A DNA stretch of 20,462 nt from a virus, in IMG/VR virus record IMGVR_UViG_3300042691_047251, positions 1-20,462 of that record; one strand, given 5' to 3'. Made by a program: the position numbers and the translations under genes. Below are positions 3,302 through 18,817 of the stretch, piece by piece (position 1 is the stretch's first letter; every line of letters begins with the position of its first letter). The notes beneath the pieces are model-generated. The model was not told the origin of the DNA. It was given only the letters and a program-made list of their open reading frames with translations, and did no database searches.

Positions 3302-5404
3302 ATGGCCAAAGAGCAAAAAGCAGGGAGAACGACAGCCGCAGGTGGTGAACCAATCGTTATTCAGGACATCAAAGTGGCCCTCTTAAACCGAGGCAACCAG
3401 ACTATCCAGACTTGGTTTAACAACCTGAAGCGCGCAGAGAGCAGCCTCTACCCGGACAGGCGTGAGATTTACAACACCTATCTCGATGCTACAGTAGACC
3501 TGCACCTTGATATGCTGATCGACAAACGGGCAAGGGCCGTGAAGACTACGCCATTCGAATGGAAGGAGCTCAGCAACGACCTGATCAAGGATAATTTTCA
3601 AAGCCCGTGGTTTATGAACTTTCTGGATATTGTTCAGAAGCGCATCTTCTTTGGCACTACCTTAATAGAGGCGCAGATCAGCAACGGCCTGATTGAAGAT
3701 GTGACTATGATACCCCGCCAGAATGTGAAGCCCGAAAAAGGGCTGATCACCAAAGACGGGTATAGCGAAAGCGGAGCCATCCATTACAATGAAGGTGTGT
3801 ATGCCGATTATGTTTTTCAGATAGGTCGCAATAATGAGCTTGGTAAGCTAGCCTACATCGTTCCCTATGTATTGATGAAGCGCCAGAACTTGGCCGACTT
3901 TAGCCGCTACAATGAAATGTATGGCATAGACCTGCGCGTGTATGAGTACGATCCGCTGAAGTCTGGTGCGCAAGATGCCATGGAAGAGTCTGCAAAAAAG
4001 TACGGCTCTGCCGCTTATATAGTAGTGCCGAAAGGAATGGGTTCGGTATTGTTCCCAAACAGCACCAACAAACAAGCCAGTGCTTTTGCATTTGATAAGC
4101 TGCATCAATTATGTGATGAAGCCATGACCGTGGGTGTGCTCGGTCAAAGTCTTACCACTGGTGGGCAAGGTGGCGGCAGCTACAGTCTGGGCCAAGTGCA
4201 TAAGAGTGTAGAGCAGGAAATTAATATGGAAGATCGGTTGATGGCTGAGTACATTATCAACTATCCATTTAAAAAACAAATTCTTTTAAAGCATGGCTAC
4301 CGCGATTTAGAAAAGCTGAAGGGCTGCTTTAAGCTACACGATGAGCTGCCAAAAGAATTAAAAGCAAAAATGTGGATTGACCTCAGTAAGAATGGGCTGG
4401 CCATTGCTGAAGAAGATTTCTACAATGAATTTGGGGTTCCCTTTCCTAATGGAAGGCCGGTAGTGGTAGCCGTCCCGACCGCAGCGTCAGGACCGCTCCC
4501 TCCGGCAAACCCAAACAAGCCTAACGATTTGCCTCCACCACCTACACCCGAAAAAAAAAAGGTAAAGCTTAACCTAAACGCTGAGCTGGCCACCTTCTAC
4601 GGGCACAAGTGCAGTCATGACAAAAGCCCGATGCGCGTAACACTCGGCTACAAGAGTGAGCTGAACGCGATCATCGACAGCATCATTCAAAAATTGAAGA
4701 GTGGTGAGCTGAAGGCGGGTGATGTAGACCCAAAACTATACAACCTCACTGCCGAAGAGCTTTGGCTAGGTGTGCAAAAAGGAATTGGCGTAAAGCTGGA
4801 AGCCGCTAGTGGCACAGAGTACGCCATGCTGAAAGCCTTGCGGACTAATGTGTATGTGTTCAGTGGGTTTAAGACCTATCAGTTTTTGAAACAAGCCAGT
4901 GAGCTGCTGGTAGATGCAGATGGTAAGGTGAAAGCCTTTAGCACCTTCCGCGATGAAGTGCTGGCACTAAATAGCCAATACAACATCGAGTACCTGCGCA
5001 CCGAATATAACTATGCTATTGCCAGCAGCCGCATGGCTGGCAAGTGGCAACAGTTTGTGGCCAACAAAGGCGCGTTGCCATTGCTGCAATACGAAACCGT
5101 GGGCGATGCACGTGTACGCGCGGCTCATGCTGCCCTGGATGGAATCATCAAACCCGTGGATGATGACTTCTGGAATCAATACCTGCCACCAAACTCCTGG
5201 AACTGTAGATGCACGGTGCGCCAACTGGCAGAAGGCACAGTGAGTGAGACCAAGCCCGAGAACTTGCCACAGCTTACCAAAATGTTTAAGACCAACACCG
5301 GCAAGAGCCAGGTAATATTCCCGCCAAGCCATCCTTACTATAATGTAGATGCAGGCGACCAGAAGAATGCAGATAAGAATTTTGGGTTAAACATTCCAGA
5401 CTAA
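3302..5404 (+). CDS. Fused portal (DUF935/gp29-like) and MuF minor head protein
   Basis: The 700-aa protein combines two functions that are separate genes (gp29 and F) in Mu. Residues about 20-400 look like a DUF935 portal, the ring through which DNA enters the head (for example LDMLIDKRARAVKTTPFEW and GQSLTTGGQGGGSYSLG). A Pro/Asn-rich linker follows (about 395-416). The C-terminal part (about 425-700) carries the MuF/SPP1 gp7 signature around DARVRAAHAALDG, DDDFWNQYLPP and SWNCRCTVRQL (about 600-640), typical of the minor head protein bound to the portal. The linker DNA ends in ten adenines (4551-4560) in frame. Slippage in either direction there would stop translation within a few codons and release a portal of about 420 residues. 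Confidence 0.88.
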   Translation: MAKEQKAGRTTAAGGEPIVIQDIKVALLNRGNQTIQTWFNNLKRAESSLYPDRREIYNTYLDATVDLHLDMLIDKRARAVKTTPFEWKELSNDLIKDNFQSPWFMNFLDIVQKRIFFGTTLIEAQISNGLIEDVTMIPRQNVKPEKGLITKDGYSESGAIHYNEGVYADYVFQIGRNNELGKLAYIVPYVLMKRQNLADFSRYNEMYGIDLRVYEYDPLKSGAQDAMEESAKKYGSAAYIVVPKGMGSVLFPNSTNKQASAFAFDKLHQLCDEAMTVGVLGQSLTTGGQGGGSYSLGQVHKSVEQEINMEDRLMAEYIINYPFKKQILLKHGYRDLEKLKGCFKLHDELPKELKAKMWIDLSKNGLAIAEEDFYNEFGVPFPNGRPVVVAVPTAASGPLPPANPNKPNDLPPPPTPEKKKVKLNLNAELATFYGHKCSHDKSPMRVTLGYKSELNAIIDSIIQKLKSGELKAGDVDPKLYNLTAEELWLGVQKGIGVKLEAASGTEYAMLKALRTNVYVFSGFKTYQFLKQASELLVDADGKVKAFSTFRDEVLALNSQYNIEYLRTEYNYAIASSRMAGKWQQFVANKGALPLLQYETVGDARVRAAHAALDGIIKPVDDDFWNQYLPPNSWNCRCTVRQLAEGTVSETKPENLPQLTKMFKTNTGKSQVIFPPSHPYYNVDAGDQKNADKNFGLNIPD
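4551..4560 (+). other. A10 homopolymer at the portal-MuF junction, possible slippage site
   Basis: Ten adenines directly follow the Pro-rich linker. In frame they read GAA AAA AAA AAG GTA AAG. One extra A in the transcript gives GGT AAA GCT TAA. One A fewer gives AGG TAA. Both alternatives stop at once, so RNA polymerase slippage could yield portal alone beside the fusion. The run and both stops are seen directly; slippage is inferred. Confidence 0.4.
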
Positions 5405-7128: not shown

Positions 7129-7483
7129 AAAGTAGCTGGTCTAATTGTTCGCGGTAGATCTCTTCTTCTTTCTTAGGGCGTGCCAAAATCAGAATATAAA
7201 ATCTCATGTGTAGCGTGTTCTCGGCTATCTTAACGTCTTGTATCAGCATGTTCTTATTTCCTTCTTTAAAAATGTCGGCTACTGCCCTGTAATGATTTAC
7301 CCATGGCGGCAGGGAGTTGATCTCCATTTGAAATTCAAATCGCTGCATCAGTTCCGCAGGTTCGTGGGCAATGTCCGGATAGTAACCTCTGCCGAACCTT
7401 TGAAGTTCACGCATCACGTATCCCACAGAGTCGTCTCTCACGTTATGTCTCACGTCTAACATCTCACGTCTATTTACAGTCAC
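7118..7483 (-). CDS. Hypothetical protein, 121 aa
   Basis: The protein begins MTVNRREMLDVRHNVRDDSV, with a mixed alpha/beta pattern and a Glu-rich C-terminus (RPKKEEEIYREQLDQLLYEQ). No domain is recognised. Two starts are possible. The ATG at 7483 overlaps the lipoprotein gene by 14 bp. The ATG at 7462 (MLDVRHNVRDDS) gives no overlap. The start region holds three copies of ACGTGAGA on the coding strand (plus-strand TCTCACGT at 7436, 7448 and 7462). The overlap with the next gene suggests an operon. Confidence 0.6.
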   Translation of the reverse strand: MTVNRREMLDVRHNVRDDSVGYVMRELQRFGRGYYPDIAHEPAELMQRFEFQMEINSLPPWVNHYRAVADIFKEGNKNMLIQDVKIAENTLHMRFYILILARPKKEEEIYREQLDQLLYEQ

Positions 7484-7715
7484 TGCATTTAGCTACAGGA
7501 GTCCAAGTTACAGAAGTATAGTTAGTAAACGAAGCGATGCCGCCAGCGGCCACATTGCTGCCGGCAAGGTATTGCTCTTTGGTGCAGCAGCGGATAAGGC
7601 CACGGTTGGTGTAGCCCTTAGGTATGCCCGTCATGCAGCCCATTTGTGGGCCTGCTTCTTCTTTGGTGCAGCCCATGGCCGCTACCAGTAACAAGATAAA
7701 GATTGCTTTTTTCAT
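7470..7715 (-). CDS. Small Cys-rich lipoprotein, 81 aa
   Basis: The N-terminus MKKAIFILLLVAAMGCTKEE is a classical lipoprotein signal with lipobox AAMGC, cleaved before Cys16. The mature part is about 66 residues, with Cys27, adjacent Cys43/Cys44 and a C-terminal CSDC, suggesting disulfide bonds or metal binding. It contains a Gly/Asn/Thr-rich middle. In Bacteroidetes the Cys followed by T-K-E-E is close to surface-export-like acidic lipoprotein starts, though this is only suggestive. A phage-encoded lipoprotein may serve lysis (spanin-like), exclusion of other phages or host surface change. None can be chosen from sequence. Confidence 0.75.
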   Translation of the reverse strand: MKKAIFILLLVAAMGCTKEEAGPQMGCMTGIPKGYTNRGLIRCCTKEQYLAGSNVAAGGIASFTNYTSVTWTPVAKCSDCK

Positions 7716-7747: not shown

Positions 7748-8068
7748 TTAAAATAGACTCCCCTGTGTATGTGTTTCCTTTTGCTCCACCAGACTAAACT
7801 GCTCTTGTACATGGTGGCCGCGTGCGTCCCAATCAGCCGCCAACCATTGGTTTTGCGTGTAGACCTGCCCGGTAATGATCTGGCGGTAGTGAGCTGTGGT
7901 AATTACCTTTCCGTTGATCACCGTTTTATTGGTTGTCTCAATGCGCAGATTGCGCACAGGTTTATCGTTGGCCGTGCGAAAGCTTTTGGTTACATCTATG
8001 GCAGAGGTAACGCGAAAAGCTTTTTCCTTCCTTATCTGATCATAATTCTTGTCTCCTTGTCCGGTCAT
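7748..8068 (-). CDS. Hypothetical protein, 106 aa
   Basis: The protein begins MTGQGDKNYDQIRKEKAFRV and is rich in Thr, Lys and Asn, with beta-like stretches (VRNLRIETTNKTVINGKVITTAHYRQIITG) and a Trp-containing C-terminal part (TQNQWLAADWDARGHHVQEQ). No signal peptide or known domain is seen. It lies 11 bp after the preceding 98-aa gene and 32 bp before the lipoprotein, on the same strand, so it is probably co-transcribed. The function is unknown. Confidence 0.6.
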   Translation of the reverse strand: MTGQGDKNYDQIRKEKAFRVTSAIDVTKSFRTANDKPVRNLRIETTNKTVINGKVITTAHYRQIITGQVYTQNQWLAADWDARGHHVQEQFSLVEQKETHTQGSLF

Positions 8069-8079
8069 ACAGTTTTCGT

Positions 8080-8376
8080 TTAAGTGAATTCGTAATAATC
8101 GTTGTCTCCGCGAATGATGGTAGTGAATGGAAAGCCTTGCTCAGGCACACGCCTGATCTGCTCAATCAACACCTTCGAGCCGGTGAACACAATCCGCTTC
8201 TCACCACCCTTTTCAATTTGTAATGTGAGCAAGTCAGTATCTTTCTTTTGCTTCGATGGCTCAACTTTAAATGCCAATACAGTAATGGAAAGATTAAACA
8301 GTTTTTGCACCTGAATCTTCTCGCCCACAAACGAGTTGATTTTTGGCTTGATGTTGAAGTCTTTAAAGTTGTTCAT
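8080..8376 (-). CDS. Hypothetical protein downstream of the DGR reverse transcriptase, 98 aa
   Basis: The protein begins MNNFKDFNIKPKINSFVGEK. The middle and end look like a small beta-barrel (IQVQKLFNLSITVLAFKV, LLTLQIEKGGEKRIVFTGSK, FTTIIRGDNDYYEFT), which could be an OB-fold or similar nucleic-acid-binding fold, but no signature proves it. It overlaps the reverse transcriptase stop by 14 bp (8363-8376) and is therefore probably translated with it. It does not resemble Avd, the four-helix accessory protein of the best-known DGR: it is beta-rich rather than all-helical. A role in retrohoming is possible from position only. Confidence 0.65.
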   Translation of the reverse strand: MNNFKDFNIKPKINSFVGEKIQVQKLFNLSITVLAFKVEPSKQKKDTDLLTLQIEKGGEKRIVFTGSKVLIEQIRRVPEQGFPFTTIIRGDNDYYEFT

Positions 8377-9280
8377 GGAGTAGTTTTTTAGTTAGGTGTT
8401 TGGCGTTGCAATGGCTGAGCCAGCCGAGGTAAGATGCTTTGCTCGCATGGTTTGGATTAGCTGCAAGCTTACGGGCAAAGTTTTGCTTGATGCTCTTGCG
8501 TATGCGGATGTGTGTGTGAAAGAAAACATAGCCAACGTAGTCGATGCCACGCGCTGCCACAGGAAACACCTGGTGGTTGTCTTTTACTTCCAGATTTAGA
8601 TCGCTCAGGTAGCTTTTAATCTCTGCTAGCAATGCATGCAGCACAGCCTTATCGTTGTGGAGGATTACCACGTCATCGGCATAGCGGTAGTAATATTTTA
8701 CCAGCTTGGTTTCTTTTATCCAATGGTCGAAATAGCTCAGGTAAAAATTCGCGAGGTACTGACTCAGGTAGTTGCCAATAGGTAATCCGGGCGCACTGTC
8801 GATAATCTCATCCAGCAGCCACAGCAAATCCTTGTCTTTGAACTTGCGCCTCAGTAACTGCTTCAGCACATCGTGGTCGATGCTCGGATAAAACTTCTTA
8901 ATGTCAAACTTCAGGCAATACGCAGTGCCTTTTACATCCGTCAAATCAGCTTTCAATTTTTGGAGCAATAGGTGTATGCCTCGCTTCTTGATGCAGCTAT
9001 AAGTGTCTGCTGTAAACGTGGCCACAAATATTGGCTCCAGCACGTTCATGATGGCGTGGTGAGTGATGCGATCAGGAAAGTAAGGCAACCGATATACAAT
9101 GCGCTCCTTCGGTTCGTGAATGGTAAAAATGTCGTAAGCAGATGTGCAGTAGGTTTTGCTCTGCAACATATCTTGAAGTAACAGAAGGTTGCCTTCAGCA
9201 TTTTGGTTATGCAGCTTCACCCCATATTGATTCACTTTACCCAACTGGCCTTTCCGGTCAGCTTCAATCAAGTTGGCCAT
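8363..9280 (-). CDS. DGR reverse transcriptase
   Basis: The 305 aa counted from ATG 9280 copy template-repeat RNA into cDNA with errors at adenines. Fingers/palm motifs are in order: ERIVYRLPYFPDRITHHAI (about 59-77), palm motif A CLKFDIKKFYPSIDH with D126, GLPIGNYLSQYLANFYLSYF (165-184) with the IGxxxSQ form typical of DGR enzymes, YRYADDVVIL with YADD at 200-203, and GIDYVGYVFF (245-254). Homologues begin 'RxxNLY..I....NL..A'. Here that segment (KRLSNLYRQVTSMANLIEAD) is encoded 13 codons upstream of the ATG with no ATG available, so the true start may be a non-ATG codon near 9319 (ATA or ATT), overlapping the ASCH stop. There is no retron, group II maturase or Abi context. Confidence 0.95.
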   Translation of the reverse strand: MANLIEADRKGQLGKVNQYGVKLHNQNAEGNLLLLQDMLQSKTYCTSAYDIFTIHEPKERIVYRLPYFPDRITHHAIMNVLEPIFVATFTADTYSCIKKRGIHLLLQKLKADLTDVKGTAYCLKFDIKKFYPSIDHDVLKQLLRRKFKDKDLLWLLDEIIDSAPGLPIGNYLSQYLANFYLSYFDHWIKETKLVKYYYRYADDVVILHNDKAVLHALLAEIKSYLSDLNLEVKDNHQVFPVAARGIDYVGYVFFHTHIRIRKSIKQNFARKLAANPNHASKASYLGWLSHCNAKHLTKKLLHEQL

Positions 9281-9315
9281 GCTGGTAACTTGGCGATATA
9301 GGTTGCTGAGTCGTT

Positions 9316-9720
9316 TTATAGCAATTCCAGTTTAATGATGAAAAGAATTTTGCCCACATCTTCAGGCTCGCACCATTCGGGGTTAGGCTTTCCGATTTTT
9401 ATCTCCTTTACAAAAGCAAGTTTCATCGGTCGGTTCTTACGATAACCCATTATCAATTCAGCCCACTTAAATGTTTTGAACTGGCACCGATATGCCTTCA
9501 ATACATCATCTGCCCAATAACCATTTTCAAAAATATCATACACAATGTTATCTGGCACTACACTATTCTCTCTCGGTTTCTCTTCAGGTAGATTGCATTC
9601 TAGTAAACGTGTTATCCAATAAGGTTTGATTTCTCGGTAGTCTTCCAACTTACCGTTGCCATACATGTCAAACCATTTCTTCTTCAACACTAGCTTTAAG
9701 GGTAAATCTTTCTTTTTCAT
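9316..9720 (-). CDS. ASCH-domain-like protein between DGR template and reverse transcriptase
   Basis: The 134-aa protein begins MKKKDLPLKLVLKKKWFDMY. LKLVLKKKWFDMYGNGKLED followed by YREIKPYWITRL (about 8-38) matches the ASCH-type start (beta strand, 'WFDMI..G.K..EYR'). It ends in a beta-rich part (RPMKLAFVKEIKIGKP, then VGKILFIIKLELL). ASCH domains are related to PUA and are thought to bind RNA. The gene lies 121 bp downstream of the template repeat on the same strand and its stop overlaps the probable reverse transcriptase start. It could be an RNA-binding helper of the DGR or just a phage cargo gene. The domain call is from pattern memory. Confidence 0.65.
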   Translation of the reverse strand: MKKKDLPLKLVLKKKWFDMYGNGKLEDYREIKPYWITRLLECNLPEEKPRENSVVPDNIVYDIFENGYWADDVLKAYRCQFKTFKWAELIMGYRKNRPMKLAFVKEIKIGKPNPEWCEPEDVGKILFIIKLELL

Positions 9721-9795
9721 TTGATCCTTTGCTTTTCATAAGTCGCCTTCTCACAAGAGGTACCAACGACCTACATTTTAACTTCGTTATTTTTT

Positions 9796-9814
9796 GCCCC
9801 TACAAATTCGGGGC
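9796..9814 (-). other. Hairpin just 3' of the template repeat
   Basis: GCCCC (9796-9800) and GGGGC (9810-9814) flank a 9-nt loop. In template RNA orientation the stem lies 27 nt downstream of the repeat and is followed by an A tract, not a U tract, so it is not a terminator on that strand. The RNA 3' of the template is needed for priming in the Bordetella phage DGR, so a structural role in the template RNA is plausible. Confidence 0.4.
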
Positions 9815-9841
9815 ATGGCCTGCGCTGGTTTATTGTTCTTC

Positions 9842-9920
9842 AGCATAGGTGAGAGCTGACATTCGAATTCGAATTCCAATTATCGTAGTCGTTAAACCGA
9901 AACCCGGACGAGCCGCCCAT
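9842..9920 (-). repeat. DGR template repeat (TR), 79 bp
   Basis: The coding strand runs from ATGGGCGGCTCG at 9920 to CTATGCT at 9842. It is non-coding here: read in the VR frame it hits TGA right after the Cys codon. It aligns without gaps to both variable repeats. The 62 non-adenine positions are identical in all three copies and every difference is at one of 17 template adenines. The codons carrying adenines are ATG, AAC, GAC, TAC, GAT, four AAT, AGC, CAC and CTA. None of them can become a stop codon when A changes to any base. It lies between variable protein 1 and the ASCH-like gene, so template RNA could be made from the same leftward transcript. Confidence 0.96.
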
Positions 9921-9943
9921 ACCAGCACACAGCCTTTCATTTT

Positions 9944-10330
9944 TTACATTACAAAATAATCCTTGTACAACTTCACAAACTGCCTAGCCACATGCTCGCC
10001 AGCCTCGCGCGAAATAAAGCAAAGGCGAGAGCCGACAAGCGAAGCCGAATACCAAGTACCGAAGACGTAAAACCGAAACCCGGACGAGCCGCCCATTTCA
10101 AACCAATTATGATATTTATCCCATTGACCATTGTTCCAATCGGGCTTCCATGCTTTGCCATTGTTGGCCAGCTTGTTCGCTGCCTTTGCAATGATCACCA
10201 GCTTGGCATGAGCAATCATCGCCTTTCTGTCTTTTACAGGATAGGCTTTGAAATCAGGTATCACTTTTTTTGGATCGAGACGCTCAACCTGGCAAGCATC
10301 TTCAAACGTTTTTAAATCTTCGAGTTTCAT
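9944..10330 (-). CDS. DGR variable protein 1 (C-type-lectin-like end), 128 aa
   Basis: The target protein begins MKLEDLKTFEDACQVERLDP. The constant part contains KAWKPDW (59-65) and WDKYHNWFEMGGSSGFRF (70-87). The diversified stretch covers residues 88-100, and SRLCFISREAGEHVARQFVKLYKDY closes the protein. The form WFEMGGSSGFRF...SRLCF is typical of short Bacteroidetes DGR proteins with a C-type lectin-like fold. TR adenine positions fall in codons for Y88, V89, F90, G91, T92, Y94, A96, L98 and G100, while W93, S95, S97 and V99 stay fixed. It has no tail-fibre domain or signal peptide. It is a paralogue of the next gene upstream. Confidence 0.9.
   Translation of the reverse strand: MKLEDLKTFEDACQVERLDPKKVIPDFKAYPVKDRKAMIAHAKLVIIAKAANKLANNGKAWKPDWNNGQWDKYHNWFEMGGSSGFRFYVFGTWYSASLVGSRLCFISREAGEHVARQFVKLYKDYFVM
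10018..10096 (-). repeat. DGR variable repeat 1 (VR1), 79 bp
   Basis: It differs from the template at 13 of 17 template adenines (coding strand) and at none of the other 62 positions. It covers residues 79-104 of variable protein 1. Its 3' end (coding strand CTCTCGCCTTTGCT) is identical to VR2 and differs from the template at three adenines, which suggests it is the fixed IMH part and not a homing-altered part. Confidence 0.95.
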
Positions 10331-10335
10331 AATAA

Positions 10336-10785
10336 TTAGATTACCATAAATTGTTTGTACACTTCAGTAAAATTATTTCCGGCATGCTCTGCCAGCTCGC
10401 GCGTTTTAAAGCAAAGGCGAGAGCCGACAGGCGAATGCGAACCCCAACCACCGCAGTCGTTAAACCGAAACCCGGACGAGCCGCCCATTTCAAACCAAGG
10501 ATAGTACTTGTATTGATTGGAGTCGCTCCAATCAGGAGTCCAGCCTTCGTTTAGTGTGACTGCCAGCATCTTTAGAATTCGGAAAGCCTTCTCGTCATCT
10601 GATAGTGATTCGCACCGCTTGTCAAACTGCGCCTTGGTCAAGCCATTTTCAGCAAGCAGGTCATCAACACTTTTGATGCGCTCCAGCACACTCTTTGGCC
10701 TTTCTTTGAACTTGATCTCTCCGGAGTTTTTATCGAAGCTCTCCACTTCGTACCCTTTCGGGATTTGGATTTTGAGTGTTTCCAT
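10336..10785 (-). CDS. DGR variable protein 2 (C-type-lectin-like end), 149 aa
   Basis: The protein begins METLKIQIPKGYEVESFDKN. It has an extra N-terminal part of beta strands and a helical LDDLLAENGLTKAQFDKR-like segment before the region shared with variable protein 1: GWTPDWSDSNQYKYYPWF (81-98), EMGGSSGFRF (99-108), variable residues 109-121, and SRLCFKTRELAEHAGNNF (122-139). Variable-codon residues are N109, D110, C111, G112, G113, G115, H117, P119 and G121, with W114, S116, S118 and V120 fixed. It ends 5 bp before variable protein 1. The N-terminus could mediate attachment to a phage or host partner, but no such domain is recognised. Confidence 0.9.
   Translation of the reverse strand: METLKIQIPKGYEVESFDKNSGEIKFKERPKSVLERIKSVDDLLAENGLTKAQFDKRCESLSDDEKAFRILKMLAVTLNEGWTPDWSDSNQYKYYPWFEMGGSSGFRFNDCGGWGSHSPVGSRLCFKTRELAEHAGNNFTEVYKQFMVI
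10410..10488 (-). repeat. DGR variable repeat 2 (VR2), 79 bp
   Basis: It differs from the template at 12 of 17 template adenines and nowhere else. It differs from VR1 only at template-adenine positions too. It covers residues 100-125 of variable protein 2. In the sequence just after it (coding strand), CTGGCA-GAGCA-TGCCGG could form a 6-bp stem with one G-T pair. Confidence 0.95.
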
Positions 10786-15537: not shown

Positions 15538-15656
15538 AGTGTTGAAATGAATTTAAAAATGGCAATGCACACGGCCAACACTGCTGCGGCCAGCAAGGTT
15601 GTAAGCACGTTCTTGGCGCGCTTCTGAAATGGGTCGGGAAATTCATCGTAGCTCAT
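15534..15656 (-). CDS. Micro-membrane protein, 40 aa
   Basis: It begins MSYDEFPDPFQKRAKNVLTT. A single transmembrane segment (LLAAAVLAVCIAIFKFI, about 21-37) follows a positively charged KRAK. The ATG at 15656 overlaps the MuB stop by 4 bp and its TGA overlaps the start of the 52-aa gene by 4 bp. The two coupled ends support expression. Function is unknown. Confidence 0.6.
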   Translation of the reverse strand: MSYDEFPDPFQKRAKNVLTTLLAAAVLAVCIAIFKFISTL

Positions 15657-16612
15657 GCTGACTTGCTTAAAGTGTTGAGAGAAAAAAGTTGAGCCACTTC
15701 TTGGCCGGTAATCTTCTTACCGTTTTGCTTCTGCCAATCCTTTATGTCGGCCACGTATTGGCTTAGCATATCTAAGTCGGTAACGTACTGCGCCAGCATG
15801 TTTTGCGCGCCCTTGTTGCTGATGTCTTCGAACTCGCACACCTGCACAATCTCACTCTCGCTCAGCTTGCTGGCCGTTACTATCTTGTTGCCAAAGAACC
15901 GCCTGCGCAGTTGTGGAAACCCTGCTTTGTTTTTGCTCGCGAGCTTATCCAGCTTGTTGATCAGGTCCATGCCGCAGATGATGAAGCCAGCTTTGTTCTG
16001 CGTCCAATCGCTGATGTCTTTGAGCACAGAATAGATGCCAGCGCGCACCACTTCCGTTTCGTCAATGATAATCAGCCAGCCTTTGCGCTGATTGATCACT
16101 CGCTTGATCATTTCCAGCTTGCTGTGGTTGCCCCGGATGCTATCATGCACGCCCATCTTCTCTAAGATGGTATCGAGCAAATCTTTGCTGCTCATGTTCA
16201 TGGTGGCCTTCACATACAGCACGTAGTCGTTGGTCATGGCGTAGCTTTCCAGGGCGTAGGTCTTGCCCATGCCTGTCCAGCCTTGTATCACTTCGCGGAT
16301 GGCGTTTTTCTGTGCCTTGCGGCAGGCGCGCTGTATGGTTTTAAAGTTGCCGATGAAATCCCAGTGCAATTGCCCATCGAAGCGGATGCCAATCGCATCG
16401 GCAATGCGGTGGAAGTACGCATCGCTGATCTGCGTTACGCGTCCGCTTCCTACTTCAATTTCGTAGGTGCTGTTTTTGATTTTGCTGATGTAGGCTTGGT
16501 TGATGCCTGCCTTCTCGGCCAGCTTGTTGCCACTTCGGGCAGGGTTCTTGTCGTCAATCCAGCTGTTCACCGCTTCGGTGATCTGCTGCTTGTGTGTGCG
16601 GGTTAGATTCAT
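15653..16612 (-). CDS. MuB-like transposition activator ATPase
   Basis: The 319-aa protein begins MNLTRTHKQQITEAVNSWID. An N-terminal helix-turn-helix (GNKLAEKAGINQAYISKIKN, 28-47) is followed by an AAA+ core with Walker A GWTGMGKT (111-118), Walker B GWLIIIDETE (178-187), a later LRRRFFG segment near residues 234-240 and a helical C-terminus. In Mu, MuB binds target DNA as an ATP-dependent filament, delivers targets to MuA and protects from self-insertion. It lies 24 bp downstream of MuA, the usual order. Confidence 0.93.
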   Translation of the reverse strand: MNLTRTHKQQITEAVNSWIDDKNPARSGNKLAEKAGINQAYISKIKNSTYEIEVGSGRVTQISDAYFHRIADAIGIRFDGQLHWDFIGNFKTIQRACRKAQKNAIREVIQGWTGMGKTYALESYAMTNDYVLYVKATMNMSSKDLLDTILEKMGVHDSIRGNHSKLEMIKRVINQRKGWLIIIDETEVVRAGIYSVLKDISDWTQNKAGFIICGMDLINKLDKLASKNKAGFPQLRRRFFGNKIVTASKLSESEIVQVCEFEDISNKGAQNMLAQYVTDLDMLSQYVADIKDWQKQNGKKITGQEVAQLFSLNTLSKSA

Positions 16613-16636: not shown

Positions 16637-18817
16637 TTATTCTAGTGGAAGTTGTTCGTCATAGCCTGCAAAGCGGTCTATTCCGGTGTTGGTTTGTTCT
16701 GCTATCGGTTGGCCCTCGCCCAAGCGATAATCTTCTCCGTGTATGATGGCATTATTAATCTCTGCCTGCGCTGCCTGAAGCACTTCTTTGTCGAAGGCAT
16801 TGGCAGTGATCATATCGGTATAGGTGCCGTTGCGTTTGGTGGTTTCTACCAGTTGGGCAAACTCTTTTTGAACTATGGCGCGTTGCTTTTTCTTTTCGGC
16901 TAGGCTGGCTCGCAGCTGTGTGCCTTCGCCTGGGCGATAGTCGGCAATGGCCATGTGGTACACGTCTTTTGGCAATGCGGCCACGTGCATGCCTTGCCAC
17001 TGTACAGGTTGGCCTTGCACATAGAGCAGGATTTTGTCGGGCTGGCCGTTTGTCCAGCGCTCTGGATTAGGTTCGAACTTAATTGATACTCGCTGGCCAA
17101 TGAACTGAGTGCGGAACTCAGCTTGCGCAATGTCGTACGCGCATGCTTTGCCTTGAATTGTAACTTCAATTCCTTTGTTAGTGAACTCATAGGTTTGAGG
17201 GATGAATGTGTTTACTGTTTTTGGCTTGCCTTCGTCATAGGTGCGGATTTTCTTGTGCTCGCCTGGCATATTCCAGAAGGCATCTACATCTATCAGCTCG
17301 CTGAAGGCACGCTGCTTGTTTAAGGTTTGTTCAACACTCTTTCTGTAGGCTTGTATGGGTGTTTGCCCTGCCAAAAACTTGCGTGGCTTGTTGTTCCACA
17401 GGTTCAAGTCTTCAATGGCTTGCTTCAGTGCGCTCTCGGCTGCTGGCAGCTCGTGGCTCTTCACCATTTTGGCAAGTGCCTCGCGGTTGGCTCGGTTGTT
17501 CAGGCTTATCGCAAACGGGTTGTGTGTAAACCCTGGGCGAAACTTCTGCACATCGGCATTGAAGAGGTGAAAGAAGTTTTCGATGATCTTTGCACGTGCA
17601 TTGCCTGCCGATGCGCCAAAACTTACCACGCTTATTTTGTCGATGGCCTCTTGTGCGCGGTAGCTTTGTATGGCAGAGCTATTGTCGTACAATATTTGGT
17701 GGGGCATGTGGCCGGTGACCATGCAGGCAGAGCGCAAGGCACCTAATACGGCCTCGGTGTTTTCGCTTTCGCTGAGCCAGAAACCTACCACACACCAGCT
17801 GTGTGCATCGAGTATTGGGAAAATGTTAAACCGGAAATATCTGCCCTGGTCGCCATGCTGAAAGTAGCGGTGCGATGGTGTGCCATCTATTACCCACAGC
17901 GCATTGGCATAACTAGCGCGCTCGCGCAAGGTTACAGGCTCAAATACGCTGCGATACTCTTGGTATCCGTGGCGTGGCTCAAACCAAAGTTGTTTGATAG
18001 ATGGCTTAGTCAAAAAAGCGCGAACCGTAGATGGCGAAATCATTGATTCGTCATTGCCCCAATGTTCCAGGCTCACCATCTCTTGGGCCTTGCGTGTGTA
18101 GATGTGCCACACCTGTTCAAAAGTTGGCTTGGCGTTTCCATCGGCATACATCTGAACGAGCAGCGCCTTCTGTTCTTCGCCCAGCACTTCGGCATTGCTG
18201 TTTCCTACCTTTTTGCTGATCAGCGATTCGAAAGCTTTTGATAGTAGGGCATTGTCTTTAACAGCCTTTTTAAAAGGTGTTAATTTCTTGATCAAACCCT
18301 TTAGTGTGCTGCACTTCCAAGCGTGCCACTCGCGCGCGCTGGCCTGTTGGTTCATCAGGTCGATGGCTTTGAGGTAGAAGTCTTCGACTTTAACAAAACC
18401 GAGCGGCTTCCAATGGGTACCTTTAGCTCCCGCTATGGCAAGTAGCCATGAAGCCTGCTCGGCTTTTTCTTTAGCGCGCTTGGCCGTGGCCGGATGCGCG
18501 AGGTAATAGTTATAAGCGTGTTGAGAGAAAGCCACCAGGCTGGCCAGCTGTTGGTTTTGGATGTGCTTGATTAGCTCGGCCTTGGTGGGCATTCCTTTGG
18601 ACAAGCGGGTGGCTTCGGGTATGCTGTCATAATCCACAAGCGTAACGGTGCGCTTGGGGTCATTAATAAAATCGATTCCTTTTACGTTGGCGTAGTTGTC
18701 GGTAATGCCAGAGCGATATTCGTTGCACTCTTTTTTGAGAAACGATTGGCTAAACCCATATTTGGTAACCAAGTCGGCTGTCACCGATAGCAGTAGTATG
18801 TTATCTTTTACTACCAT
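16637..18817 (-). CDS. MuA-like DDE transposase
   Basis: The 726-aa protein begins MVVKDNILLLSVTADLVTKY. DNA-binding helical domains occupy about the first 290 residues. The RNase H-fold core carries the DDE triad: D311 in LWVIDGTPSH, D378 in ILYDNSSAI and E413 in KIIENFFH. GKPKTVNTFIPQTYEFTN (about 540-557) and later strands fit the Mu transposase C-terminal beta-barrel. The C-terminal tail is charged and could contact MuB. It would cut and join the phage ends for integration and replicative transposition. Its start overlaps the upstream Cys-rich gene by 7 bp. Confidence 0.95.
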   Translation of the reverse strand: MVVKDNILLLSVTADLVTKYGFSQSFLKKECNEYRSGITDNYANVKGIDFINDPKRTVTLVDYDSIPEATRLSKGMPTKAELIKHIQNQQLASLVAFSQHAYNYYLAHPATAKRAKEKAEQASWLLAIAGAKGTHWKPLGFVKVEDFYLKAIDLMNQQASAREWHAWKCSTLKGLIKKLTPFKKAVKDNALLSKAFESLISKKVGNSNAEVLGEEQKALLVQMYADGNAKPTFEQVWHIYTRKAQEMVSLEHWGNDESMISPSTVRAFLTKPSIKQLWFEPRHGYQEYRSVFEPVTLRERASYANALWVIDGTPSHRYFQHGDQGRYFRFNIFPILDAHSWCVVGFWLSESENTEAVLGALRSACMVTGHMPHQILYDNSSAIQSYRAQEAIDKISVVSFGASAGNARAKIIENFFHLFNADVQKFRPGFTHNPFAISLNNRANREALAKMVKSHELPAAESALKQAIEDLNLWNNKPRKFLAGQTPIQAYRKSVEQTLNKQRAFSELIDVDAFWNMPGEHKKIRTYDEGKPKTVNTFIPQTYEFTNKGIEVTIQGKACAYDIAQAEFRTQFIGQRVSIKFEPNPERWTNGQPDKILLYVQGQPVQWQGMHVAALPKDVYHMAIADYRPGEGTQLRASLAEKKKQRAIVQKEFAQLVETTKRNGTYTDMITANAFDKEVLQAAQAEINNAIIHGEDYRLGEGQPIAEQTNTGIDRFAGYDEQLPLE

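Follow-up and report, generated by a model that had tools for sequence, protein, structure and literature searches.

The locus described here raises the question of whether three related 79-base repeats, lying beside a reverse transcriptase (RT) gene, form a working diversity-generating retroelement (DGR), and what such an element might serve in a Mu-like phage. It lies in a 20462-base virus record (IMG/VR IMGVR_UViG_3300042691_047251), which was analyzed over its whole length and is referred to below as the window. The element is a genuine DGR, with an RT, one template repeat (TR) and two variable repeats (VRs), which rewrites two small sister genes from a single template. With a probability of roughly 0.88 it is a DGR of the Bacteroidota-phage type, probably of RT lineage 3, which sits in the transposition region of a Mu-like phage and works as proposed below.

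Template and Variable Repeats

The repeats were re-aligned on the minus (coding) strand, where the three 79-mers align with no gaps. The VRs each contain an initiation of mutagenic homing (IMH) sequence, and both lie inside protein-coding open reading frames (ORFs).

9842-9920, minus strand: TR, 79 nt with 17 adenines (re-alignment and repeat search)
9862-9893, minus strand: diversified core of the TR, 13 adenines, mainly in AAY codons (clade-wide adenine tally)
10018-10096, minus strand: VR1, with its IMH at 10019-10036 (re-alignment)
10410-10488, minus strand: VR2, with its IMH at 10411-10428 (re-alignment)
9944-10330, minus strand: target gene 1, proximal type, 128 aa, VR at residues 79-104 (phrog_11581)
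10336-10785, minus strand: target gene 2, distal type, 149 aa, VR at residues 100-125 (phrog_11581)

VR1 differs from the TR at 13 of the 17 adenines (six A to T, four A to G, three A to C) and VR2 at 12 of them (eight A to G, three A to C, one A to T), while the 62 non-adenine positions carry the same base in TR, VR1 and VR2. The adenine at TR position 0 (0-based numbering throughout) is unaltered in both. Under a hypergeometric model, differences confined to adenines would arise by chance with a probability of 9e-12 (VR1) or 1e-10 (VR2). An earlier note on this DNA, made from the letters, had given the coordinates of the three repeats, the 17 TR adenines, and 13 and 12 differences with zero elsewhere, and all of this was confirmed to the base; the non-adenine TR/VR differences which it had named as grounds for giving up its reading were not present. 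Its claim of a complete adenine-specific DGR in a Mu-like phage also stands, with the TR/VR pattern, the RT motifs and Mu-type genes all found. The 13 core adenines occupy five AAY and three single-A codons, which allows about 5e7 protein variants per target and zero stop codons.

For comparison, a set of about 150 relatives was assembled. RT searches yielded 80 viral loci and 80 loci in genome records, nearly all titled as Bacteroidota (Flavobacteriaceae, Chitinophagaceae, Prolixibacteraceae and others), and a purpose-written adenine-tolerant repeat search recovered the TR and VRs in most loci. Clade-wide, upstream of the 3' end of the TR (IMH*), adenines were changed in 1452 of 2296 cases (63%) and non-adenines in 19 of 6497, and G, T and C all occur in place of the changed adenines. 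A plain gene duplication whose copies are homogenised by gene conversion, with an adenine bias by chance, would agree with the paralogy of the two target proteins (38% identity), but this explanation is refuted by the adenine-only pattern (chance about 1e-10 or less per VR). The TR moreover lies outside the target ORFs, and relatives show this pattern too, their RTs lying about as far away, so that we give this explanation almost no weight.

The TR of one relative, L069, has merely 10 adenines, 8 and 9 of which are changed in its VRs. Many relatives (e.g., L015, L030, L053) have further TR adenines before the core, and the VR cells aligned to these read G in 170 of 230 cases, A in 44, T in 10 and C in 6. 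This G-rich 5' part is a hint of a second, 5' fixed boundary, which is absent in the window.

Fixed Differences at the 3' End of the Repeats

9843-9860, minus strand: IMH*-like 3' end of the TR, GTCAGCTCTCACCTATGC, against which the aligned VR bases are fixed as G, G and T at three A sites (142 VRs from 75 loci)

TR positions 63, 70 and 74 are A in the TR and G, G and T in both VRs. Across the 75 loci with this TR end, the same sites read G in 142 of 142 VRs, G in 142 of 142, and T in 140 of 142, a tally preceded by a first count on 92 VRs. Because almost all VRs of the clade have these bases, the three adenine differences nearest the 3' end of each VR are IMH*/IMH differences which mark the boundary and are not mutagenesis; the VRs carry an IMH and the TR a non-identical IMH*. 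The change at site 74 is silent (CTA/CTT, Leu) and protein selection therefore cannot hold it, for which reason the fixed sites were not put down to protein selection alone. Scoring all 13 and 12 differences as mutagenesis was also rejected. The near-saturation of changes at adenines claimed by the earlier note was thus overstated: the differences are real, but three of the 13 and three of the 12 are fixed, which leaves 10 of 13 core sites changed in VR1 and 9 of 13 in VR2. In some relatives (e.g., L053, L070), non-adenine differences occur within the TR 3' end.

The last diversified adenine is TR position 58. Since a cDNA reaching the VR must begin upstream of position 63, these two limits point to a start within TR positions 59-62.

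Reverse Transcriptase

8363-9280, minus strand: DGR RT, 305 aa, with IGNYLSQ and YADD (RVT_1 E 1.5e-20; phrog_1423 E 1.4e-113; best solved match 8ub7_A)

The RT was read as DGR-type from its YADD and IGxxxSQ motifs, and this was borne out. IGNYLSQ has the (I/V/L)GxxxSQ form of the DGR group, and the best solved match was 8ub7_A (E 1.3e-39, next-best 6e-14), the aligned sequence of which is that of the BPP-1-type DGR RT (as read from L163). In a tree, the window RT was split 100/100 from group II RTs, with finer placement limited by long branches. A retron or group II RT, the other outcome which would have counted against the earlier reading, was rejected on the solved-structure match and the tree.

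The nearest RTs among phage records are crAss-like and 49-57% identical. The order target-TR-RT and the SRLC/A at the VR 3' end, found as VGSRLC in both targets and also in most relatives, are the marks of RT lineage 3/CLec3 DGRs (Wu 2018 scheme via PMC7290462), and one crAss-like RT has been placed in lineage 3 (PMC7290462). No match to Avd was observed among the window ORFs scanned, with some small ORFs outside the scan. Judged by sequence, the DGR probably belongs to the group called RT lineage 3.

Number of Targets per Template

With near-duplicates and the window removed, 132 relatives could be scored for VRs: 81 loci had two, 34 one, 16 three and 1 four, so that 98 of 132 had two or more targets. 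These counts were automatic; they are lowered by fragments, and a few spurious pairs remain. Among these Bacteroidota phages, a template normally serves two or more targets. The earlier note had called this arrangement less common, which does not hold within the clade, and multi-VR DGRs were already known, at about one seventh of DGRs in one survey (PMC3521204) and 28.6%, clustered in one RT branch, in another (PMC6642488). The clade has two paralogous target types, a proximal one of about 125-130 aa and a distal one of about 150-160 aa, and 91 of 97 targets were assigned to phrog_11581. In 20 host genomes target copies lie almost all at the DGR locus, unlike the additional target paralogues without a VR of a general report (PMC3521204).

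In some loci, VRs were found several kb from the RT on either side, as in L152 (VRs at 3856, 7592 and 16732, RT at 8001) and similarly in L127 and L138, which makes remote targets possible. A Dyadobacter genome holds four target-family copies across about 52 kb. Four tandem copies, the last with stops, are present in the genome of L083 (Aquimarina algiphila; G001:C233:16602-18250), on a contig other than that of the RT locus.

Structured Spacer RNA between the Template and the RT

9728-9841, minus strand: structured spacer RNA 3' of the TR; helix 1, 9815-9812 with 9798-9795; helix 2, 9773-9766 with 9746-9739, with an inner stem
9316-9720, minus strand: 134-aa ORF between the spacer RNA and the RT (phrog_625, no known function, E 6.5e-10)

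The TR-to-RT distance is roughly 130-160 nt in most loci. RNAalifold analysis of 57 spacers gave 13 pairs, 11 of them with double compensatory changes, and 95.5% of the cells of the alignment were paired. Covariation was 0.605, compared with 0.205 after shuffling (none of 500 shuffles reached 0.605) and no more than 0.095 after sliding; the spacer sequences are related, so that the shuffle figure is not a probability, and this relatedness was kept in the slide control. The TR-RT spacer is thus a structured RNA in which both sequence and fold are conserved.

A covariance model built on the viral loci (R1) placed the element immediately before the RT in almost every genome locus (few of these loci are copies of viral ones) and also matched the crAss-like DGRs cr55 (E 1e-5) and LMMB (E 0.002). 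At E 0.1 it gave no match in BPP-1-type or Hankyphage loci, and a search of Rfam with the spacer RNA gave nothing at E<=1. One further R1 match, in L145 (7269-7378, E 0.067), does not lie by the RT and was attributed to chance. Among 168 loci, the ORF at 9316-9720 was present only in the window's near-identical records L002 and L003, and most other phages have no ORF there. The gap between spacer RNA and RT is a spot for insertions, with lengths of 558, 515, 433 and 368 nt in L004, L007, L015 and L025 compared with the usual 130-160.

Candidate Accessory Gene

8080-8376, minus strand: candidate DGR accessory protein, 98 aa, basic, pI 9.4, 11.4 kDa, overlapping the RT ORF by 14 nt at the RT stop

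A homologue of this gene was found by profile in 157 of 169 loci, and by tblastn in 142 loci, co-oriented with the RT and starting within 400 nt after it. Twenty DGR-bearing genomes contained 22 copies, and the second copy in G012 fits a second DGR there (L114, L117). When 199 genomes of one family were searched, only the two with this RT had the gene; of 395 Bacteroidota genomes, five had it, each beside this RT, and six had an RT match below E 1e-100. The C-terminus of the Hankyphage RT (residues 327-422) is the same domain (E 1e-13), a homologue follows the RT in the archaeal viruses ANMV-1 and vir525, and in LoVEphage the domain was detectable after profile iteration. From these sequence comparisons we infer that the 98-aa protein is a DGR component, one which possibly stands in for Avd; PMC10053308 names Avd, HRDC and MSL as DGR accessory proteins.

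The tie between gene and RT is one of sequence, and several DGR loci, including BPP-1-type, BalMu-1, ACA2 and crAss-like ones, yielded no homologue, as might be expected of a phage gene which simply hitchhikes with the RT. Such a gene would hardly be carried by 157 of 169 loci, be confined to RT-bearing genomes in both genome surveys, recur in different phage types and archaeal viruses, and be fused to the RT in Hankyphage, and we consider hitchhiking improbable. The reading as a DGR component is the one followed below. The protein was assigned to phrog_19665 in 70 of 70 cases, for which PHROG gives no function, and showed no Pfam match and, by profile search, no significant solved-structure match. 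By eye, its predicted strand pattern makes a small beta-barrel (OB-like) conceivable, which is not claimed. In L209 (LoVEphage), RT homology extends over three pieces and several ORFs with the possible accessory domain after them, and the RT is perhaps frameshifted or split.

No description of the accessory gene or of the covarying spacer RNA of this group was found in the literature covered, outside which lies the Wu 2018 survey, and a prior mention is possible. The DGR itself is a member of a known group, and these two are the parts for which no description was found. Neither of them had been noticed in the earlier note.

Proposed Mechanism

Order and orientation suggest that a single transcript would run through target 2, target 1, the TR, the spacer RNA, the RT and the accessory gene. 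The spacer would fold into its two conserved helices and bind the RT, with the accessory protein likely in the place of Avd. cDNA synthesis would begin at the TR 3' end, between positions 59 and 62, as suggested by the onset of the fixed differences and by BPP-1, in which the spacer folds, recruits bRT-Avd and, from an internal adenine, primes cDNA inside IMH* (PMC12875486); priming at that place fits the start proposed here. The RT would misincorporate opposite adenines, a step to which the pattern of differences attests, and the mutated cDNA would replace the matching stretch in either target gene; the two targets can diversify separately. The IMH sequence GTCGGCTCTCGCCTTTGC, constant among the VRs, may anchor this replacement, and since IMH* is unlike the IMH, the TR would escape overwriting.

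The accessory gene would offer a handle on how DGRs without a recognised Avd start and guide cDNA synthesis. With a covarying RNA and a predicted cDNA start confined to 4 nt, the element also provides a second DGR type, after BPP-1, in which the mechanism of priming can be put to the test.

Activity of the Element

Pairs of relatives were compared for changes at VR adenine sites. L015 and L016 differ at 6 of 2257 bases, all of them at such sites (0 of 2180 elsewhere). Between L039 and L088, 11 of 20 VR adenine sites differ versus 10 of 12844 positions elsewhere, and between L070 and L073, 11 of 47 versus 14 of 10959. In the last pair VR1 is the same and VR2 alone is changed, which indicates that the two targets can diversify separately. 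No VR change was observed in the clade pairs L013/L014 and L030/L032. The DGRs of the relatives are active, and no such sign was found for this phage's own copy. The active or recently active system claimed earlier is therefore upheld for the relatives, whose VRs vary at adenine sites, and not for the window, whose near-identical records L002 and L003 show zero variation.

A number of observations weigh against the element working as proposed in this phage. L002 (9805 bases) and L003 (4045 bases) are 100% identical to the window, and this holds for the VRs wherever they are covered; this copy could be inactive. The ORF at 9316-9720 parts the spacer RNA from the RT in the window. In the 40 nt that follow the IMH, the 142 VRs gave a mean z of -0.58, with 9% below -2, and no conserved hairpin was seen; BPP-1 requires a hairpin downstream of the VR for full efficiency (PMC3240598). 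The evidence for the roles of the accessory protein and the spacer RNA consists of linkage, fusion and covariation.

Both the invariance of L002 and L003 and the inserted ORF would be accounted for if the cassette in this phage were a recently inactivated relic, the VRs of which record past mutagenesis. We judge this unlikely, as every component (RT, both targets, spacer RNA, accessory gene) is open or present and non-adenine drift between TR and VRs is zero. The identical records may in addition represent the same population, and L013/L014 and L030/L032 are likewise invariant in their VRs though L015/L016 vary.

Phage Context and Target Proteins

3302-5404, plus strand: Mu-like portal fused to a Mu F-like domain (PF06074 E 4e-46, PF04233 E 4.2e-15), strand opposite the DGR
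15653-16612, minus strand: TniB/MuB-like AAA protein (PF13401 E 4.1e-11; TniB E 0.00046, under the TniB cut-off), same orientation as the DGR
16637-18817, minus strand: Mu-type transposase with an rve domain (PF00665 E 8.2e-8), same orientation as the DGR

Portal_Mu, Mu F, the rve transposase and the TniB/MuB-like AAA protein were all detected and identify a Mu-like phage. The DGR cassette is placed between portal and transposase, in the orientation of the transposase, in the window and in the five Mu-like relatives in which both genes were found, with positions in the relatives taken from the contig ranges of their loci. A Mu portal was undetected in 13 of 21 relatives, including L004, which has the nearest RT (85%), and on this basis the cassette seems to move between phage types.

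Both targets have 24 residues beyond the VR. They gave zero matches by tblastn against the phage collection, and profile searches against solved structures gave nothing significant. AlphaFold models (pLDDT 85 and 88) were confident outside the VR, with parts of the VR below 50. Foldseek and VIA-align found no PDB match at E<=0.001 for either model, and in a viral structure library the models matched uncharacterised viral proteins alone (best A0A8S5UWJ8, E 4.5e-5).

Most phage DGR targets with a known function are tail proteins (PMC10743442), and the SRLC motif by which lineage-3 VRs are filed as C-type lectin class 3 (CLec3) (PMC7290462) is matched by VGSRLC here. The targets could accordingly be virion receptor-binding proteins, such as small tail-tip or lectin-like subunits, with the DGR altering host range as in BPP-1, a role we find plausible but somewhat short of probable. 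Against it, the genes sit on the transposition strand among transposition genes, between these and the portal, in the window and in the five relatives, the models are without a PDB match, and no tail gene was recognised beside them. The same position and orientation would suit small early cytosolic proteins which bind host or competing-phage molecules, in counter-defence or superinfection control. Their size (128 and 149 aa), with no structural domain recognised, and their neighbours, small ORFs of no known role and an HNH protein (PHROG search), are in line with such proteins. This suggestion is a tentative one, as no functional match was found and position alone gives no timing. Targets outside the tail genes, if true, would widen the view of what phage DGRs serve.

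Comparison with Known Systems

The DGR of Bordetella phage BPP-1 has the same RT SQ motif and catalytic DD, adenine-specific transfer from TR to VR, a spacer between TR and RT, and an IMH*/IMH difference at the repeat 3' ends. The window element differs from it in that no Avd was found among the ORFs scanned, in its two tandem paralogous targets placed away from tail genes, in the different accessory gene after the RT, in having no clear hairpin after the VR, and in its spacer, the BPP-1-type spacer being undetected by R1. RT lineage 3/CLec3 DGRs, including that of crAssphage LMMB, share the order target-TR-RT, the lack of avd (in the window, among the ORFs scanned) and a VR ending in SRLC, and the crAss-like members also share the related RT and spacer RNA. 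Unlike here, both crAss-like RTs that were examined exceed the window RT by about 130 aa and come with no detectable accessory homologue, and the single target of LMMB is a 486-aa tail-collar fibre (PMC7290462).

Hankyphage is likewise a Mu-like phage of Bacteroidota, and its DGR, which is active in the laboratory (PMC12135933), has the accessory domain fused to the RT C-terminus. Its RT, however, is 35-38% identical, there is one VR (PMC6199706), the diversified protein is a tail fibre and an Avd is annotated (PMC12135933), whereas the window cassette sits with transposition genes and not by a tail fibre. In the archaeal virus ANMV-1, a homologue of the 98-aa protein is encoded directly after the RT, but the single target is the Mtd-like CLec protein adtA, beside putative tail-fibre genes (PMC4372165). 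It is conceivable, if doubtful, that the element represents a DGR sub-type in which a covarying spacer RNA and an unrecognised 11-kDa basic accessory protein replacing Avd diversify pairs of small early non-virion proteins in Mu-like phages.

Just downstream of the cassette, at 7470-7715 on the minus strand, lies an 81-aa ORF with an N-terminus resembling a lipoprotein signal (MKKAIFILLLVAAMGC), which is present only in the window's own records.

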